A DNA stretch of 40,834 bases from Methanomicrobiales archaeon (lineage in GTDB: Archaea; Halobacteriota; Methanomicrobia; Methanomicrobiales; Methanospirillaceae), in contig JAPKXR010000187.1 in the NCBI GenBank assembly GCA_026394715.1, positions 1 to 40,834 on the forward strand, given 5' to 3'. Below, in pieces: positions 6,385-35,774 of this stretch. The notes under the pieces are model-generated. The model saw nothing but the letters and a program-made list of their open reading frames with translations, did not search any database and was not told where the DNA came from. Position 1 is the first letter of the stretch. Each line of letters starts with the position of its first letter. Both the position numbers and the translations under genes were made by a program.

Positions 6385-7413
6385 TTACCGTATAATCGTG
6401 ACAGCCGATGGCTTGACCTCACGGAGCGCTTCCTGTGATACCATGTCAAGATACGATGACCTGGCATTCCCACCTGTCATGTTCTGTTCAGTCATCCAGC
6501 GTGCTTCATCCTCCATTTCAACGATTAATGCCTGGTCAAGTGAGAGCACGAACCGGTAATCTTTCAAGGTGCTGTTGACAGACTCATCGGTCATATTGAG
6601 GCGCCGCTGGAGAATTTCCTTTGTCTCAGGCTCGTGTGAGGTAGCAAACGTCTCTGCCTCATCAAGAGCACGCAGGTACTTTCGGATCACTTCCGGCTTG
6701 TCGCGGATTAGGTCAGACCGGGCATAGGAAACCCAGTAATAGAACTGCCCACTCTGAGCCCGCCATCTTGTGCTGTTCCGCCCGAGCTGCTGTTCGGTCT
6801 GGTAGGCATACGGTTCCCAGATAACCACGGCATCAGAGTCACCGGAAACCACACTTTTTATCGCATCGGCAGGGGCCAGGTGAAGGACGGTGATTTGTGA
6901 GGTATTCATCCCGTTGAGGGTAAGATACCTCCCGAGGAAAAACTCTGCTACACTACCTTTTGGAACGGCAATTGTTTTTCCTTTCAGGTCAGATGGCGTT
7001 GATATTCCCCGGTCGCTCCGGATGATAACATAGAGATTATTAATTTTAGCCGTGGTTGTGATGAACCGAAGGTCCGGGGACTGGAAACTGTTCGCCACGC
7101 CGACAAACTCTGCCGCATAAGCAAGGTCAGCGTTTCCGGCGAGAAGTTCCTTTACCGCATACGTCCCGGCGGGATATGCATGAATCGTCACATTCAGCCC
7201 GTGCTTCTGAAAGTATCCTTTCTCATCGGCGATCAGGGTTAATAGTGACGGTTCCTGTGTACCGCTTGCAATGATGAGCTGTTCTGACCCGGCCGAAGTC
7301 TTTGCAGGCAGATTTACGAAAATTAGTACGAGTGCGATCAGGAGGATAATCACAATTATTCCGATCCCAATAAATTTCCAGGTACAAGGATTCCCCCGCT
7401 TACATGTATCCAT
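6385..7413 (-). CDS. Membrane-anchored NMT1/SsuA-like substrate-binding protein
   Basis: 342 residues. A short cytoplasmic head is followed by one hydrophobic segment (about 14-35, rich in I/L/V) that should anchor the protein outside the membrane. The remainder matches periplasmic binding proteins of the NMT1/THI5/SsuA type: an EPSLLTLIADEKGYF start, a YAVKELLAGNADLAYA segment, the hinge segment PSDLKGKTIAVPKGS, and VVIWEPYAY. Such proteins bind nitrate, sulfonates, taurine or thiamine precursors; the ligand cannot be read from the sequence. No ABC permease or ATPase lies next to it. Instead it stands 9 bp in front of a membrane histidine kinase, which points to a sensing rather than a transport role. 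The fold family is likely; the ligand and the sensing role are inference. Confidence 0.9.
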   Translation of the reverse strand: MDTCKRGNPCTWKFIGIGIIVIILLIALVLIFVNLPAKTSAGSEQLIIASGTQEPSLLTLIADEKGYFQKHGLNVTIHAYPAGTYAVKELLAGNADLAYAAEFVGVANSFQSPDLRFITTTAKINNLYVIIRSDRGISTPSDLKGKTIAVPKGSVAEFFLGRYLTLNGMNTSQITVLHLAPADAIKSVVSGDSDAVVIWEPYAYQTEQQLGRNSTRWRAQSGQFYYWVSYARSDLIRDKPEVIRKYLRALDEAETFATSHEPETKEILQRRLNMTDESVNSTLKDYRFVLSLDQALIVEMEDEARWMTEQNMTGGNARSSYLDMVSQEALREVKPSAVTIIR

Positions 7414-21192: not shown

Positions 21193-22185
21193 TTAAATCA
21201 CCCCTGTTTTCATTAAGATGGCCTGGAACGTGAGTTTTGTGGGGTATTTTTTTAGGAACCGGATCACCTGTTCAACCACTTCGGAATTCCCTGGCATTTT
21301 TATATGACTATCGTGATCAGGGTATAGGTTAAAATTTTCCAGGTCCCGTGGTAATATAACGATTTCAGCCCCGGGAAGATCTGAATCGGCATGGGTGACG
21401 ATGCCATCACCGTTCCATGTCAGGTGCCAGGTGCCGTCCGGAAGAAGCCCCGGTGTCTTTTCCGTTGAATTGCGGGAATAAGTCTGGTGTCTGTGTTGAG
21501 TTGGTGGAAAGGATTATTCTGTACGCGATATCGTTTCTGAGCCCGGCCCCGGAAAGTGTCTTCATCGTCTGGCTGCCCGGGCGGAATTCCTGGACAATGA
21601 CGTCATCTGCCGGAATATATCCCGGAGGCACAAAGACCCCCGTCAGCCTGTTGATAACCTTCGGGCCGTAGTCAGGGTGATTGAACAGTTCTGCCATTTC
21701 TGAACCGTTATTCGGCGGCCCGATGCCGATAAGCTGCCGGACTTTCTCCCTCTTCTCCTCTGCCGTCTATCACTTCAAGCAGGTACCGGGCGATACAGGT
21801 GCCCATGGAGTGGCAGACAATATCGAGGTCGCCACAGTAACCCGTCTCATCCCGCACCGAGTTGATAAAGTGCTGTAACCCTTTCGCGATCTCTTCGAGT
21901 GAGGTGTCATCCATCGCCACGTGATCGAAGTTCCAGAAGGAAATCTCCTCCTCTGACAGCCGTATGACCAGTTTTTTCCAGATACCCGGATGGCTTTTCC
22001 AGCCATGGACCAGTACAACGGGGACGTCCTCGCATATCCTGTGCAGCTATTTTGTTGCTGAATACGATGTAGAGGTTCTGCCCGGGTACGACAAGTGAAT
22101 TATTACCGGCCACACGAGTTCAGGGAAACACCAGCTATCCGTGAAGGTTACGGGGACATGGGGAAAATTACGGCACCTATTCTCC
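21193..22185 (-). pseudogene. Alpha/beta hydrolase (lipase-like), frameshifted
   Basis: Read across frames, the pieces form one hydrolase. They are an N-terminal part (DSWCFPELVAGNNSLVVPGQ), the oxyanion strand VVLVHGWKSHPG, the nucleophile elbow VCHSMGT with the catalytic Ser, EKVRQLIGIGPPNNGSEMA, and near the C-terminus TWNGDGIVTHADSD (acid) and DHDSHIKMP (His). All triad elements are therefore intact. Single-base frame changes lie near 22035, 21750 and 21455; the last is in a GGGG run. No signal peptide is seen at the 5' end, which may be lost as well. The substrate is unknown; CHSMG lipases of this kind act on esters of long acyl chains. Confidence 0.8.
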
Positions 22186-28834: not shown

Positions 28835-30070
28835 ATGGTTCAGACCCAGGTCGAACTGGCGGCGGGGGGAGTCCTGACCCGCCAGGTGAAGGACGTGGCA
28901 ATGGCAGGGCACGTGCCGCCGGATGTACTCATGGGCCGGGTTGCCCGGGGGAGCGTCGTGATAATGACGAGAGGGGAGGTATCGGTGGGTATTGGTGAAG
29001 GTCTCAAAACGAAGGTCAACGTCAATCTCGGGACTTCTTCGGTACCATGTAATCCACATGAAGAAGAAAAAAGGCCATTATTGCAGGAAAATATGGTGCG
29101 GATACCATCAGTGACCTGTCGATGGGTGGCAGTATCACGGACATACGGAAAGCGATTTTTGAAAACTCCTGCCTTCCGATCACCACGGTCCCCCTGTACC
29201 AGGCATGTGCAGAACAGGGAATAAAAAAATTAACCACTGACCATATCCCTGATGCCGTCCGGATGCAGGCCGGGGAAGGCGTAAGCTCGTTTGTGTTTCA
29301 TTGCGTCTCAAACGAGATGCTTTCATTGCTCAAAACGAAACGGAGAATTCTTGAAGTTGTTTCCAAGGGTGGCTCGATCACCTGCGCGTACATGCTCAAA
29401 AACGAGGTTGAAAACCCATTTATCGAGAATTTTGATGAACTGCGGTCAATACTGAAACAACACGATATCGTCCTGTCTTTCGGGAATACGATGCGGAGCG
29501 GATGCATCCATGACATCCGTGACAAGGTCCAGGTAGCCGAGATGAAAAATAATGCTGAACTTGCGTCATATGCCCATGCATCGGGAGTCCAGGTAATAAT
29601 CGAAGGGAACGGTGATCATGTCAGGGCAGACCGGATCGCAGGGTATGTCAAATACCAAAAACGCCTGTCCCCGTCTCCGCTCTTTGTCGCGGGTCCCCTA
29701 CCGACCGATCTCGCGATGGGCCATGATCATATCGCCGGGTGCGTGGGCGCAAGTATCGCAAGCGGTGCGGGCGCTGATTATCTCTGTTATATCACCCCTG
29801 CAGAAACACCTGGGCCTTCCGGACCCGGAACAGGTCCGCAAAGGGCTGATTGCATTCAGGATTGCAGCCCATATCGGGGATAGCATCAAGTACGGCCTTT
29901 CAATGAAAGATGCCGAACTTGCTTCAAAGAGGGCGGAACTGGATTTCGAGGGGCAACTCTGCCACGCAATTGACCCGGAGAGGGCAGAAGAAATTGCGCA
30001 ACGAAGCGGGCCCTGTACGATGTGTGGGGAGTTTTGCGCCATTAAAATCATGAAAGATTATCATTCATAA
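28835..30070 (+). pseudogene. ThiC-family radical SAM enzyme, divergent, with two one-base frameshifts
   Basis: Joined across frames the product has about 411 residues, normal for archaeal ThiC. Seen are VGIGEGLKTKVNVNLGTSS, YGADTISDLSMGGSITDIR, SKGGSIT, HDIVLSFGNTMRSGC, GPLPTDLAMGHDHIAG, LCYITPAEHLGLP and the C-terminal cluster motif C-x2-C-x4-C (CTMCGEFC) that binds the [4Fe-4S] used with SAM. The canonical ThiC motif GDALRPG reads GNTMRSG here and EGPGH reads EGNGDH, so this is a paralogue rather than standard ThiC. ThiC makes HMP phosphate for thiamine; the paralogues BzaA/B/F make 5-hydroxybenzimidazole, the cobamide base of many methanogens. Breaks: one A too few in the A-run near 29070, and one A too many near 29805. 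It is first in the operon leading to coenzyme M genes. Confidence 0.8.
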
Positions 30071-30084
30071 CGCCCGGGTTTGCT

Positions 30085-30958
30085 ATGCACCCCTTTCCAT
30101 GTTCCCATGCAACGGACCGATGCAGCGGGAACTGCACCACACACCAGGGAGGAACTTGATACCCAAGGTTCTTATCAGGCAACTCATCAGTAATTACGGC
30201 AGCCACACTGCATAAATCCATAATCTTTCCAAAGGTGGCATCGCTGACTTCATGATGATCGAATTGTTGCCGGGCCACCCAGTGCGGGAAAAACAGCGGT
30301 AGTGCGGCAGATCCTGCGATCAGTGGCCGGCTCCCGGAACGTTGCCTACCTGAAAATCGATGTTGTCAGGGCATTTGAAGATGAGGAGCTGAGGGCAGAG
30401 TTTTCCATCCCTGCAAAATGTGTCTATTCCGGGGACCTCTGTCCGGATCACATGGGGATCATGATCCTCGCAGACTCCCTTGTCTGGGCAGAGCAGGAAA
30501 AGGCGGATATACTGATCATCGAACGTGCGGGACTGTGCCTCCGCTGTACCCCCTATACTACCCAGTCACTGGGTATTGTCGTATTATCCTCTGTCAGCGG
30601 GACCAATGCACCGCTCAAAATGGCCTGATGATTGCGCTTGCCAACATTGCGGTCGTGACAAAGACCGACCTTGTCTCGCAGGCTGAAAAAGAAGTCTTCC
30701 GGGAGAAGATCCGCACGGTTTCACCCAACGATTGATATTGTTGAGACCGATGCGATCCAGGGTACTGGTATGCGCTACCTGATGCAGGCGGTTACATCCA
30801 CTCCGGAAATCAACGATGCAAAGACAATAAAGCTCCGGGGAATATCCCCGCTGGGCGTCTGTACGATCTGTGCAGGAAAACAGGAGATTGGATGGCAGAA
30901 CCATTGCGGCGTCGTTCGGAAACTAAACAGTACAGAAGCCATCTTCCGGGGGGATTGA
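30085..30958 (+). pseudogene. HypB/UreG-like SIMIBI GTPase with cysteine motifs, frameshifted
   Basis: Rejoined pieces: a Cys-rich head (MHPFPCSHATDRCSGNC), PKVLIRQLISNYGSHTA, then the P-loop AGPPSAGKTAVVRQIL, AYLKIDVV, KCVYSGDLCPDH, IIERAGLCLRCTPYT, LMIALANIAVVTKTDLV with the guanine motif TKTD, and a tail CTICAGKQEIGWQNHCGVVRK. This is the HypB/UreG/CooC class of metal-insertion GTPases. The CxxC in the middle and the Cys-rich tail are not typical of HypB and suggest an Fe-S or metal site. Frame changes: near 30145, one stop near 30212, a missing A near 30260, a missing G near 30626 and an extra base near 30730. The start at 30085 is a reconstruction; a shorter form may start at 30252. It lies between the ThiC-like and Fe-S genes. 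Confidence 0.65.
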
Positions 30959-30961
30959 ACC

Positions 30962-31579
30962 ATGGTGTTTACTCCCCCGGACCGCAACTGCGGAGCTTGC
31001 GGTGTTTTTTTGTGCGATGAATTTTTACAACGGGTAAAAGAGGGCAAAAAGCAGGAGACGGACTGCATTTTTTATAGTAATCACGAATCGCGCTGTGAAC
31101 CGGATACCTTCATACACTCCCTCACCGATATCAGGGGAACCGCGTACGATTTTGTCATCGCCCCGTTTCACGGTGAAAAATCCGCACGTACAATGATCCT
31201 GCCCTTCCGGCCGGATCTTGTCGGGCGCTGGAATATCGTGCAGGGTGATCTGGTATCGGGCCGACCGATGGGCCAGGGATGCCCGGTCCCGCATTTCCTC
31301 GAAGTAATCCGGGCGAATCCTGTAACCGGTCTCCTGACCTGTCATGCGGTCGGTCCTCTTGTCGCACGGGACAGACCATGCCACCCGCTTGAAGCCTATC
31401 ACGTGATCAGGTTTGAAGGCAGGGCTGTAGAGATTATCAACGAACCCGCCATAGGGCACCGCATGAGTTTCCTCCCCTCCTTTTGCATGCTCCAGCTTGC
31501 CCATACGGGTGTGGTGAACCAGGTGATCCAGTCCGGTAACGACACGAATATCCGCGTGGAGGATATCAGGATAGTATGA
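30962..31579 (+). CDS. Fe-S (PF04060-type) protein of the coenzyme M-linked operon
   Basis: 205 residues. The N-terminal motif C10-x2-C13-x4-C18-x16-C35 (NCGACGVFLC then TDC) matches the Fe-S domain found in the CODH/ACS gamma subunit and related proteins, which binds one [4Fe-4S]. The remaining 165 residues are a beta-rich domain with LPFRPDLVGRW, IVQGDLVSGRPMGQGCPV and PVTGLLTCHAVGPL that I cannot name. It starts 3 nt after the GTPase stop and its own stop overlaps the DUF39 start (ATGA). It may pass electrons or a cluster to its neighbours; this is inferred from context. Confidence 0.8.
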   Translation: MVFTPPDRNCGACGVFLCDEFLQRVKEGKKQETDCIFYSNHESRCEPDTFIHSLTDIRGTAYDFVIAPFHGEKSARTMILPFRPDLVGRWNIVQGDLVSGRPMGQGCPVPHFLEVIRANPVTGLLTCHAVGPLVARDRPCHPLEAYHVIRFEGRAVEIINEPAIGHRMSFLPSFCMLQLAHTGVVNQVIQSGNDTNIRVEDIRIV

Positions 31580-32820
31580 AGACCACCGGTGGGATCAATG
31601 CAAAGATCCGAAACGGTACTGTGCTCGTCATGACTGCTGCAGAGCTCAAGCAGCACATCCGCAATGGGGATACGATAACCCCCGATGATGTTGATGTCGT
31701 AACGACCGGAACGTTTGGCGTGATGTCTGGTACCTATGCCGTGCTCAGCATCCCGGTTGCGAAAAAAAAGGCGTTTTTTAAAGCCGAACGGGTATGGCTC
31801 AATGGTGTCCCTGCGGTACCCGGCCCATGCCCGAACGAGAACCTTGGGCTCGTCGACCTGATCGTGTACGGGACAGCCCATGCGAACGCTTCGTATGGCG
31901 GGGGGCACCTGTTGCGGGACCTTGTCCAGGGAAATCCCGTTGACGTTGTCGTTAAAGCAGAACAAAAGACGTTCAACGCCTCGGTTACGCTTGAAGACCT
32001 GGAATTTGCACGCCTTATCACCACCCGGAGTGCTTTTAAAAATTATTCTGCGCTGGTAAACCCCCGATCCCGCCCGTTAAACTCGACGATCTTTTCCGTT
32101 ACACCGATGCAGGGGCGTTTTACGGAGGCAAGTGTCAGCGGGTGCGGGGAGATCAATCCCCTGGAAAATGATCCCGCTATGCGGGTTATCGGGCCGGGAA
32201 CACATATACTCGTCAATGGTGGCGAAGGATATGTGATGGGGACAGGTACCCGCAGTTCCGCCGGGCGCCCGAACCTCTCCTTTTTTGCCGACCTCAAAGG
32301 GATGGACCCTGATATGATGGGTGGTTTTATCACGTCCGCGGGGCCTGAATGTCTCGTGTCCTGCGCAGTACCGATCCCGGTCCTTGACAACGAGTCCCTT
32401 TCGGCCCTTTCGGTCCTTCATGAACAGGTCCCGCTGCCGGTTGCTGATGTTGCGGACCGGACTCCGCTGGCTGTAACAACCTATGGTGAAGTCTGGAACG
32501 GGACCGATCCGGTCATCAGGTTTGATCCATCGCTCTGTACCTCCTGTGAATCATGTGCTGCGGCGGCCCGGTGTCCAACAGGAGCAATAACTACCGGCCC
32601 GATTAACTATCACTACTGTGTCCATTGCGGGACCTGTACATTCACCTGCCCGGCCCATGCGTATCATGGCCGGCTTGGGTCACTGCCGATAAATCCCTCG
32701 CAGAAGGTCCCGGTCGTCCTTCGGCAGTCCAGCCTTACCCATGCAAAACGGCTGTGTGAACGGTTGAAGCATCAGATTATGAAGGGTGAATTTTTCCTGA
32801 CCGGCCCTTTTGGGGAATGA
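31576..32820 (+). CDS. DUF39 (COG1900) sulfur-incorporation protein with C-terminal 2x[4Fe-4S] ferredoxin
   Basis: 414 residues. Residues about 1-310 are DUF39: DVVTTGTFGVMSGTYA, GVPAVPGPCPNENLG, VDVVVKAEQKTFNA, NYSALVNPRS, SGCGEINPLENDP and GTGTRSSAGRPNLSFFADL. The C-terminus carries two cluster motifs, CTSCESCAAAARCP and CVHCGTCTFTCP. COG1900 proteins with a ferredoxin partner make homocysteine from aspartate semialdehyde and sulfide in methanogens. In this copy a Ser stands where, from memory, the homocysteine-forming group has a catalytic Cys (FG-x-M-C), so it may be another subgroup. Overlap with both neighbours (ATGA at each end) ties it to cysteate synthase and ComDE. That makes it a candidate for the last step to coenzyme M (sulfoacetaldehyde plus sulfide plus electrons). 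The family is certain; the reaction is inference. Confidence 0.88.
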   Translation: MKTTGGINAKIRNGTVLVMTAAELKQHIRNGDTITPDDVDVVTTGTFGVMSGTYAVLSIPVAKKKAFFKAERVWLNGVPAVPGPCPNENLGLVDLIVYGTAHANASYGGGHLLRDLVQGNPVDVVVKAEQKTFNASVTLEDLEFARLITTRSAFKNYSALVNPRSRPLNSTIFSVTPMQGRFTEASVSGCGEINPLENDPAMRVIGPGTHILVNGGEGYVMGTGTRSSAGRPNLSFFADLKGMDPDMMGGFITSAGPECLVSCAVPIPVLDNESLSALSVLHEQVPLPVADVADRTPLAVTTYGEVWNGTDPVIRFDPSLCTSCESCAAAARCPTGAITTGPINYHYCVHCGTCTFTCPAHAYHGRLGSLPINPSQKVPVVLRQSSLTHAKRLCERLKHQIMKGEFFLTGPFGE

Positions 32821-34125
32821 TTTCTATGGGAGATTACCAGATCCAGTGTACTGCGTGTGGGCGATTATACCCGGATACCGGCTCGAATGAATGCCCGGAC
32901 CGGCATGCCGCTCTCCAACGCACGGTCTATTCAGCACAGCGTCTGCCTTGTGCCGACCTAACGGGAATGATGAGGTTTTATGACTGGCTGCCTGTGCATA
33001 ACAGACCGGTCGTGACTGCAGGGCCGGTCACGTACAAAAGCGAGGTGTTTGCCCGGGAACTCGGGCTTTCCCACTTGTACGTTACGTTCAACGGGTTCTG
33101 GCCGGAGAAGGCAGCGGCCATCAAAACATGCTCATTCAAAGAATTAGAGGCAGTCCCGACCCTTGCCCGGGCAGCGGAAAAGAAGAGCGGGATCCTTGTC
33201 GTAGCCTCGGCAGGAAATACCGGCCGGGCATTTGCGCAGGTTGCGGCAGGTATGAATACGCCTGTCGTTGTTGTTGTCCCAAAAAAATCCCTGCCCCGCA
33301 TCTGGACAACCGTTCCTGCCGACACGGTACTCCTGATCACGGTCGAAGGGGACTACTCAGATGCCATCAGTATGAGTAATTACATTGCGGACCTCCCCCA
33401 TCTCACGGCGGAAGGCGGGGCGAAAAATTGTGCCCGGCGGGATGGGATGGGGACCGTGATGCTGGATGGGGCAACAACTATCGGCCGGATTCCGGATTAT
33501 TACGTGCAGGCTGTCGGTAGTGGGACCGGTGCGATTGCCGCATGGGAAGCAAGCCAGCGACTGGTCCGTGACGGACGGTTCGGCCATCACCTGCCCCGCA
33601 TGGTCTTGTCGCAGAACCACCCGTTTATACCGATGGCAAACGCGTGGAACGCGGGAAGAAGAGAAATTGATCCAATGACTGATATGGCGGATGCAACGCA
33701 GGCAATTTCCGAGGTCTATGCCGATGTCCTGACCAACCGCAACCCACCCTATGGCATTACGGGAGGATTATTTGATTGCCTCACCGAAACCGGCGGGGAG
33801 ATAGCTGCCGTACGTAATGATGAAGCACGACGGGCACAGACGTAATGATGAAGCACGACGGGCACAGGGCCACTTTGAAGAATGTGAGGGTATCGACCTT
33901 GACCCCGCCGCAGGGGTGACCGTTGGGTCCCTCATATCAGCAGTTCAGCAGGGACGGATTGATCCCAAAAAGAATGTGTTACTGAATATTACCGGCGGGG
34001 GCTATAAGCGGGTGCAGGAAATGTTCGATTGTATTCAGGTGCCTGTCGGCCTTGCAACCAACAATACGACCAACAAGGACGAGATTGCCAGATTCGTCAG
34101 TGACTGGGTGAACGCACATGCATGA
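32817..34125 (+). pseudogene. Cysteate synthase interrupted by a 28-bp tandem duplication
   Basis: Without the duplication the gene codes for 426 residues, the normal length. The fold is threonine-synthase-like and PLP-dependent: an N-terminal zinc ribbon (CTACG, then CPDRH), the PLP Lys in TCSFKE (K108), the substrate loop ASAGNTG, the phosphate loop QAVGSGTGAI, and in the C-terminal frame LLNITGGGYKR. The enzyme turns O-phosphoserine and sulfite into cysteate, which enters coenzyme M synthesis. An exact repeat of 33812-33839 at 33840-33867 shifts the frame, so the first frame stops at 33845 and the last 90 or so residues follow in another frame. GGGGAA at 32810 favours the ATG at 32826 as true start; the ATG at 32817 overlaps the DUF39 stop. 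The stop overlaps ComDE by 8 nt. Confidence 0.93.
33812..33867. repeat. Exact 28-bp tandem duplication
   Basis: Positions 33812-33839 and 33840-33867 are identical. The unit codes for RNDEARRAQ in the gene frame. As 28 is not a multiple of three, it breaks cysteate synthase; deleting either copy restores one continuous frame. Confidence 0.97.
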
Positions 34126-35251
34126 GGATACACTCATTCAGCACCTGGGCGACCAGGGGATCAATCTTGCCGTCTCGCTCCCGTGTGACAAGGCAAAAAT
34201 GCTCTGTAGTCTTCTTCCCGAATCGTTTGAAACAATAGAACTCCTCCGCGAGGAAGACGGTGTGGGAGTCTGTGCAGGGGCATACCTTTCCGGACGAAAA
34301 CCAGTCATGGTCATCCAGAGCTCAGGCCTTGGCAACATGCTCAATGCACTCCTCTCGCTTTCGCGGACCTATGAACTGCCGCTCCCGATAATCGCCAGCT
34401 GGCGGGGAGTCTACAAAGAGACCATCCCTGCGCAGGTACCGTTCAATACAGCCCTCCCCGGTATTCTTAAGGCCGCTGACATCCCGTTTGCCATTGTCGA
34501 TCACCCGGACGAGTTTGACCGGGTATCAGAAATAATCGGGACGGCATACCGTTCACACACCCCGGCCGTAGCACTCGTCTCACCACGTTGCTGGGAGGGA
34601 CCATCGGTATGCGAACGGGATGAAGAAACAAAAGACCGGGCGCGGGAGATCAGGATTGTCCATGAACGAGCAGTTCCATCCCCGACAATGACCCGGCTGG
34701 ACGCAATCCGCGCGATTGTCCCGCACCTGAACGATGCTCTCGCAGTCTCAAATATTGGCATTCCGGGTAAGGAACTATACTGGACCGGGGACCGTAAGGA
34801 AAATTTCTACATGCTTGGCAGTTACACGCAGGCCACCCCCATCGGGTTTGGGATTGCACTCTCCTCGCACCGCAAAACGATTGTCATCGACGGGGATGGA
34901 AGCCTGCTCGGCACGGCCATACTCCCGGTGATAGCGGGAAAAAAGCCTCGGAACCTCACTATTATCTGCCTGGACAACGGGGTATTCGGCAGCACCGGCA
35001 ACCAGATGACACCTGCCTGCCAGCAGGTTGACCTGGAACTTTATGCCCGTGCATGCGGTTTTGAGCAGACGGCAAAGGTTACCTCTGCAGAAGAGATTGG
35101 CGGGGCAATTGCATCCCTTCAACAAGGCCCCTCATTCCTTCATGTGGTGATACGCCCGGGCAACTCTGATGTCCCCAATATCCCATTCACACCGCAGGAG
35201 ATTCGTGACCGGTTCATGAGCACGGTCCGGACCGGTGCAATTCAAGGCTGA
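34118..35251 (+). CDS. comDE: Sulfopyruvate decarboxylase, fused alpha-beta (ComD-ComE)
   Basis: 377 residues. Residues about 1-165 match the alpha chain (ComD) with the TPP-activating Glu in LLREEDGVG (residue 45-46) and SGLGNMLNAL. Residues about 190-377 match the beta chain (ComE) with the TPP/Mg motif IDGDGSLLG (GDG at 259-261) and CLDNGVFGSTGNQ. The enzyme decarboxylates sulfopyruvate to sulfoacetaldehyde in coenzyme M synthesis. Methanocaldococcus has two separate chains; the one-chain form is typical of Methanomicrobia. Overlaps cysteate synthase by 8 nt and ends the operon. An aminotransferase is needed to link cysteate to sulfopyruvate and is not in the window. Confidence 0.95.
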   Translation: MHEDTLIQHLGDQGINLAVSLPCDKAKMLCSLLPESFETIELLREEDGVGVCAGAYLSGRKPVMVIQSSGLGNMLNALLSLSRTYELPLPIIASWRGVYKETIPAQVPFNTALPGILKAADIPFAIVDHPDEFDRVSEIIGTAYRSHTPAVALVSPRCWEGPSVCERDEETKDRAREIRIVHERAVPSPTMTRLDAIRAIVPHLNDALAVSNIGIPGKELYWTGDRKENFYMLGSYTQATPIGFGIALSSHRKTIVIDGDGSLLGTAILPVIAGKKPRNLTIICLDNGVFGSTGNQMTPACQQVDLELYARACGFEQTAKVTSAEEIGGAIASLQQGPSFLHVVIRPGNSDVPNIPFTPQEIRDRFMSTVRTGAIQG

Positions 35252-35774
35252 CGCATTCATGAGAGTTAATGCGGAATTGTGGTTTATTACCCGTTATATC
35301 AAGGTGTATGGGTTCCCAGGAAGGATTTTTTGCAACGGTGAGAGATGCCCGATCACTTCTTGAAATCTGTTGCGAAACGAAGAGGATTATTATCGGAAGA
35401 TGATATGCTCCTTTCCCGGTATTAAGCAGCAAGCCCAATACTAGCCGGGCATAGGAAGAGAGCCTGTATGAATACCAAGAGTTCCGGAGCCGTTGCACCA
35501 GCTTTGAGGTTTTTTGCCAGGGGGCGCACTGCATTAGGTCCCGGGCCTGGGCTTTTCGGTGGGAGGGCCTGAAGATTTGACCTCCGCTTTCCGTGTTGCA
35601 CCCGACCATCAGGGCCACTGCCAGGGAAGGGGGCCGGATACCTGGTAACAAAATTCTTCGGGGGTCAATCGTACCACAAAAACCGGCCAATGAGAGTTGA
35701 GTACGTTGTAGCCAGAGATACCTGGTGCAACAAATAAAAATCCTCATCTTCATTCGCATCCAATATCGCCTTTC
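35252..35774. other. Non-coding stretch before the MFS gene
   Basis: About 520 bp. A 31-codon plus-strand frame (35308-35403, beginning MGSQEGFFATVRDARSLL) looks mildly protein-like but has no support. The long minus-strand frame across this stretch shows no family features. An AT-rich patch near 35733 (CAACAAATAAAAAT) may be the MFS promoter. Confidence 0.4.

Follow-up and report, generated by a model that had tools for sequence, protein, structure and literature searches.

Gene content of the locus

The window analysed here, a stretch of 40 834 nt, is contig C22 (JAPKXR010000187.1) of the 402-contig, 3.25-Mb, 98 % complete genome of a member of the Methanomicrobiales (assembly GCA_026394715.1). 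It carries genes for the synthesis of coenzyme M (CoM), preceded on the same strand by a gene of the ThiC family. Profile matches give the order as ThiC-family gene, HypB-like GTPase, PF04060 iron–sulfur (Fe-S) protein, MMP16, cysteate synthase (CS) and ComDE. The features, in window coordinates, are as follows.

28835–30070, + strand: ThiC-family radical S-adenosylmethionine (SAM) gene of the class C clade (see below); PF01964 matches in pieces at 28844–29071, 29065–29805 and 29771–30055; two frameshifts
30071–30251, no strand: gap and junction of 181 nt, from comparison with the ThiC locus of genus-mate G150 and the operon of UBA10516
30252–30958, + strand: HypB/UreG-like GTPase, frameshifted; motifs P-loop GPPSAGKT, CLRC and CTIC
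30962–31579, + strand: Fe-S protein; N-terminal 4Fe-4S motif (PF04060) like that of the corrinoid/iron–sulfur protein, plus a beta-rich domain
31576–32820, + strand: MMP16/coenzyme M synthase (ComF), open frame; TIGR03287; COG1900/HcyBio and ferredoxin domains; function from PMC12068725
32817–34125, + strand: CS, frameshifted; TIGR03844; 28-bp tandem duplication
33812–33839, + strand: additional 28-nt tandem copy shifting the CS frame; exact placement within the repeat ambiguous
34118–35251, + strand: ComDE, a fused sulfopyruvate decarboxylase, open frame; TIGR03845 and TIGR03846

A first-pass annotation of the window had given these gene identities and their order correctly. It had overlooked the frame breaks in the ThiC, GTPase and CS genes, and had left MMP16 as a DUF39 gene, missing its identity with a published CoM synthase. 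The MMP16 protein scores 511.9 bits against TIGR03287 (cut-off 363.95) and combines PF01837 (COG1900/HcyBio) with Fer4 matches at 313–362. Both ComDE models are above their cut-offs (TIGR03845, 200.6 against 147.95; TIGR03846, 236.4 against 221.5). CS scores 508.5 against a cut-off of 324.9 (TIGR03844), but its frame is broken by the duplication.

From the GTPase through to ComDE the genes are tightly packed: 3 nt separate the GTPase and Fe-S genes, and overlaps of 4, 4 and 8 nt follow at the Fe-S/MMP16, MMP16/CS and CS/ComDE boundaries. The ThiC stop codon (30068–30070), however, lies 181 nt from the GTPase ATG (30252). The tight spacing once described for all six genes therefore applies to five, and fails exactly at the junction that carries the link to ThiC.

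Conservation of the coenzyme M operon

GTPase, Fe-S protein, MMP16 (ComF), CS and ComDE form a conserved CoM operon, normally headed by an ABC-type ATPase. Across the Methanomicrobiales these five genes keep their order and tight spacing beyond chance. In 80 named GTPase loci, many of which end early, the ATPase is present in 78, the Fe-S gene in 79, MMP16 in 59, CS in 63 and ComDE in 58; a contig end lies 56 and 151 nt from the start of the two loci that lack the ATPase. The GTPase gene adjoins the Fe-S gene in 79 of the 80, and in a set of 150 genomes the two behave as a fixed pair (both in 86, GTPase alone in none, Fe-S alone in two). MMP16 and the GTPase co-occur in the same set (P=5e-21; P-values throughout are uncorrected for shared ancestry). 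The earlier proposal that the GTPase and Fe-S genes are tied to CoM synthesis is thus borne out.

This linkage was already known. Genetic work on Methanosarcina acetivorans identified MMP16 as its main CoM synthase and supports the conversion of sulfoacetaldehyde to CoM by this homologue (Chadwick et al., 2025, PMC12068725). Genes for an ATPase, a 'Ni2+ binding GTPase' and a 'COG2000 domain Fe-S protein' are reported often to colocalize with CoM genes, their role being unknown (PMC12068725). Judged by its position, the Fe-S protein of the window is the 'COG2000' protein of that study.

The ATPase of the relatives is a soluble ABC-type protein (PF00005). Upstream of it, in 33 of the 67 loci with room, lies a divergent helix–turn–helix (HTH_3) regulator gene whose C-terminal domain is unassigned, for example about −885 from the GTPase in L167 and at L181:8637–9116. 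This is a candidate CoM regulator, and is absent from the window.

The ThiC-family gene

The first-pass annotation placed the ThiC paralogue in one operon with the CoM genes. A neighbourhood check, chosen beforehand as the refuting test, found ThiC unlinked to the CoM genes in relatives. No ThiC of any class occurs in the 80 named GTPase loci or in the 20 loci first examined and, in the reverse direction, no CoM gene occurs in 35 loci of the same ThiC class (class C). Where class C and CoM genes share a contig they are 48 kb to 1.2 Mb apart. Across the 150 genomes class C co-occurs neither with the GTPase (P=0.86) nor with MMP16 (odds ratio 0.48, P=0.05). On these grounds ThiC was rejected as a member of the operon, and the claim of a ThiC–CoM module is not supported: on the most probable reading the gene takes no part in CoM synthesis. 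With this misleading link removed, the operon proper is the known one.

It had been suggested that ThiC, GTPase and Fe-S protein form a single module building a metal or cofactor centre for CoM. The genes are adjacent and co-directional in this contig, and two of the three are truly linked to CoM. Given the neighbourhood and co-occurrence results, the 181-nt gap and the fact that the ThiC gene is broken both here and in the two genus-mates that carry class C, such a module is very improbable.

Class C is a third ThiC clade, monophyletic with 100/100 support relative to classes A and B, and is present in 50 of the 150 genomes, about a third of the sampled Methanomicrobiales. Its members have full-length homology to ThiC of A. 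thaliana (4s25) and Caulobacter (3epm), and retain the C-terminal CxxC...C Fe-S motif and the metal-ligand histidines. They differ in that EGPGH has become EGxGGH, the glycine of HxG is lost and FYxxGP has become LFVAGP; these substitutions are uniform in class C and fall at positions that do not vary in plant ThiC or in classes A and B. The comparison is by motifs only, as the numbering of ThiC active-site residues did not map cleanly. An intact member, L072, scores below the cut-off of TIGR00190 (418.2 against 460) and above that of NF009895 (480.2 against 410).

Class C is mostly a solo gene, and none of its neighbours, examined for hints of a function, recurs at more than 7 of the 33 loci. 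Class B adjoins purE-like and riboflavin-like genes (judged by eye), and the neighbours of class A gave nothing decisive. In the genus of the present genome class C is broken in all three members that carry it, at differing sites, and classes A and B are intact.

An alternative reading had the paralogue making the lower-ligand base of a cobamide, in the manner of BzaF, and being co-regulated with the CoM genes. The distinctness of the clade, with its changes at otherwise invariant sites and its retained cluster motif and histidines, would favour such a role, and methanogens make factor III, which contains 5-hydroxybenzimidazole (PMC10989573). However, the intact class C member reaches only 368.5 of the 700 bits required by the BzaB model TIGR04386, class C neighbours hardly recur, and the class is confined to a third of the genomes and broken in this genus. 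Moreover, the linkage to CoM genes is private to this contig, so co-regulation is not expected. This alternative appears improbable.

A putative role for the ATPase, GTPase and Fe-S protein

The genes for these three proteins, here termed the trio, keep the company of CS and ComDE even if MMP16 is lacking or lies elsewhere. Six sampled genomes (G017, G085, G093, G097, G113 and G140) have trio, CS and ComDE and no MMP16 over cut-off genome-wide; either they use another CoM synthase or their pathway stops at sulfoacetaldehyde. MMP16-less loci with the order ATPase–GTPase–FeS–CS–ComDE are L150, L152, L154–L156 and L158. In L227 the trio lies beside genes that by eye are ComA- and ComB-like, in place of CS, and divergent trios in other families adjoin CS and, in some cases, also ComDE. 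Second or solo copies of the trio, lacking adjoining CS, MMP16 and ComDE, are seen in L151, L153, L157, L159 and L160; several of these adjoin genes for large secreted or surface-type proteins.

Genes of sulfur and metal metabolism recur around the trio. In L267 (5286–8628) a gene for a NifS-type class-V aminotransferase, resembling cysteine desulfurases, is situated between the GTPase and Fe-S genes, and genes for ThiF, NifU_N and an NMT1_2 (sulfonate-type) binding protein are nearby. ThiF, ThiS, PP-loop sulfurtransferase-like, SsuA-type and FdhD genes are found near trio loci and in none of 35 control loci. A paralogous GTPase–ATPase pair in L266 is accompanied by a DUF364 heavy-metal chelation gene, near genes that by eye resemble MtrA/MtrH.

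Because of these desulfurase, sulfur-carrier and metal-chelation type neighbours, the simplest reading of the trio is a unit for the maturation or delivery of metal or sulfur clusters in CoM synthesis, which is the role favoured here. They fit the 'cluster-building' function proposed in the first-pass annotation. In intact relatives, sulfite and phosphoserine would be converted to cysteate by CS, then through sulfopyruvate to sulfoacetaldehyde by ComDE, and finally to CoM by MMP16. ATPase, GTPase and Fe-S protein together would act as an energy-driven unit supplying a metal centre or an iron–sulfur/sulfur centre.

The trio might instead serve the uptake of CoM or sulfonates, or the supply of sulfite, and not sulfur insertion. 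An SsuA-type NMT1_2 binding protein is encoded about 1.4 kb upstream in eight Methanoregula-type loci; the CS and ComA-like (L227) routes, both of which co-occur with the trio, both use sulfite; and trio–CS–ComDE exists without MMP16. Against this, no permease gene is found beside the ATPase, and the GTPase family is of metallocentre type, which makes a role in uptake or sulfite supply unlikely.

A bolder version of the maturation role can also be envisaged, in which the trio is a sulfur or metallocluster machine, driven by energy and dedicated to CoM, that is able to serve a synthase other than MMP16; as a separate matter, class C would be a radical SAM enzyme derived from ThiC and forming a new product. 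In this combined form the proposal is distinctly unlikely. What now needs explaining is the contribution of the tight GTPase/Fe-S pair and of the ABC-type ATPase to CoM synthesis. The survey offers three handles on it, namely the MMP16-less genomes with a trio, the desulfurase within a trio, and the paralogous GTPase–ATPase pair with its metal-chelation gene.

The junction and the broken reading frames

The closest intact operon, L181 from Methanoregulaceae UBA10516, was the reference for pairwise alignment. Its order is HTH regulator (divergent), ATPase, GTPase, FeS, MMP16, CS, ComDE. The window shares 81.8 % DNA identity with it over 30263–35269, with similarity beginning only at the start codon of the GTPase gene. 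Upstream of that gene the window lacks the ATPase and regulator genes of L181, and no orthologue of the ATPase was found in the whole genome. On the ThiC side, similarity to genus-mate G150 stops at about 30126; there the next gene after ThiC is convergent and, by eye, beta-RFAP synthase-like. Between 30126 and 30252 the window therefore joins two loci found apart in relatives. This adjacency is most likely accidental, arising from local deletion, rearrangement or an assembly join. A chimera with a UBA10516-like contaminant was considered and is unsupported by the tetranucleotide signature of the operon, which fits the host (0.880, null mean 0.881); a local misjoin could still account for the junction.

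Aligned with the G150 copy, the ThiC gene is spread over three frames by a −1 shift at about 29067, in a run of A, and a +1 shift at about 29804, from an extra A. Relative to L181 the GTPase gene has shifts of −1 at about 30260, −1 at about 30624 and +1 at about 30727, and CS has a +28 shift at about 33812 generated by a perfect 28-bp tandem duplication. The Fe-S, MMP16 and ComDE genes have no frame-shifting indel. These six frameshifting indels lie in about 6 kb, as against one break in about 55 kb of conserved coding sequence within 312 kb sampled elsewhere in the genome, the single break being in a COG1900 paralogue. The genome's second COG1900-family gene (G000:C57:15612–16486) is broken by a frame change and stops.

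Taken jointly, the most probable reading is that the window holds the known CoM operon, minus its ATPase and regulator and abutting an unrelated solo ThiC gene, with the trio as a maturation and delivery unit. Several observations weigh against it. MMP16 occurs without the GTPase in ten sampled genomes, and the GTPase without MMP16 in nine; MMP16 thus has no strict need of the trio, and the trio is not tied to MMP16. The mechanism proposed for the trio is drawn from neighbouring genes, a signal contributed mostly by Methanoregula-type genomes, whose loci are partly redundant. With regard to the frame breaks, the ratio of nonsynonymous to synonymous substitution rates (dN/dS) relative to L181 is low in every gene (0.09–0.19, lowest in the GTPase), and invariant residues are mostly retained in the frameshifted genes. 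Several indels are in short homopolymers, and five of the six lie within 1.7 kb around the junction, a distribution also compatible with a bad join. The low dN/dS rules out long-standing pseudogenes. Together with the retained residues, it indicates genes that were still functional in the very recent past, and local errors of sequence or assembly could account for the indels.

The last point, the bunching of the indels and the fragmentation of the assembly into 402 contigs suit an explanation in which the frame breaks and the ThiC–operon junction are artefacts and the organism has an intact operon from ATPase to ComDE. This is possible, though the less likely account, as the ATPase is found nowhere in a 98 % complete genome, breaks are few elsewhere and the operon has the tetranucleotide signature of the host. 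A perfect 28-bp tandem duplication is atypical of base-calling error, and the class C genes of the genus-mates are broken at different sites. The three genus-mates lack MMP16 and CS over cut-off; to be without these genes is thus the normal state in the genus, which makes decay of the present copy plausible. Recent true decay and locally poor assembly both fit the frame breaks; the operon in this genome is incomplete and probably decaying or poorly assembled. If the frameshifts are real, the window shows a methanogen caught in the course of losing CoM synthesis.

Other features of the window

On the minus strand at 6385–7413, a gene for an NMT1/THI5-like substrate-binding protein lies beside genes for a large sensor kinase and PAS/response-regulator proteins. 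At 21196–22029, also on the minus strand, the coding signal switches among all three minus frames, suggesting a further broken gene.

Comparison with known systems

The window shares MMP16/ComF, CS and ComDE with the published CoM cluster (PMC12068725). It differs from that cluster in lacking the ATPase and HTH regulator, in the frameshifts of its GTPase and CS genes and in having a ThiC-family gene next to the operon; ThiC goes unmentioned in the main text of that paper.

The N-terminal approximately 40 residues of the Fe-S protein, with their Cys motif, resemble the 4Fe-4S domain of the corrinoid/iron–sulfur protein large subunit (4djd, E 3e-5), but the protein has no corrinoid domain, and its beta-rich domain had no PDB fold match at E≤0.001. 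The GTPase resembles the HypB and UreG nickel-insertion GTPases in its P-loop and GTPase core (TIGR00073, 64 bits; 2hf8, E 8e-9). It is unlike HypB in that an intact orthologue, L027, scores 64.1 against a TIGR00073 cut-off of 121.2, and in having invariant motifs of its own, SGDxCPDH, ESAGLCLRC and VCTxC. The trio would work in the manner of the SufC ABC ATPase and the HypB/UreG metal GTPases, while belonging to neither family.

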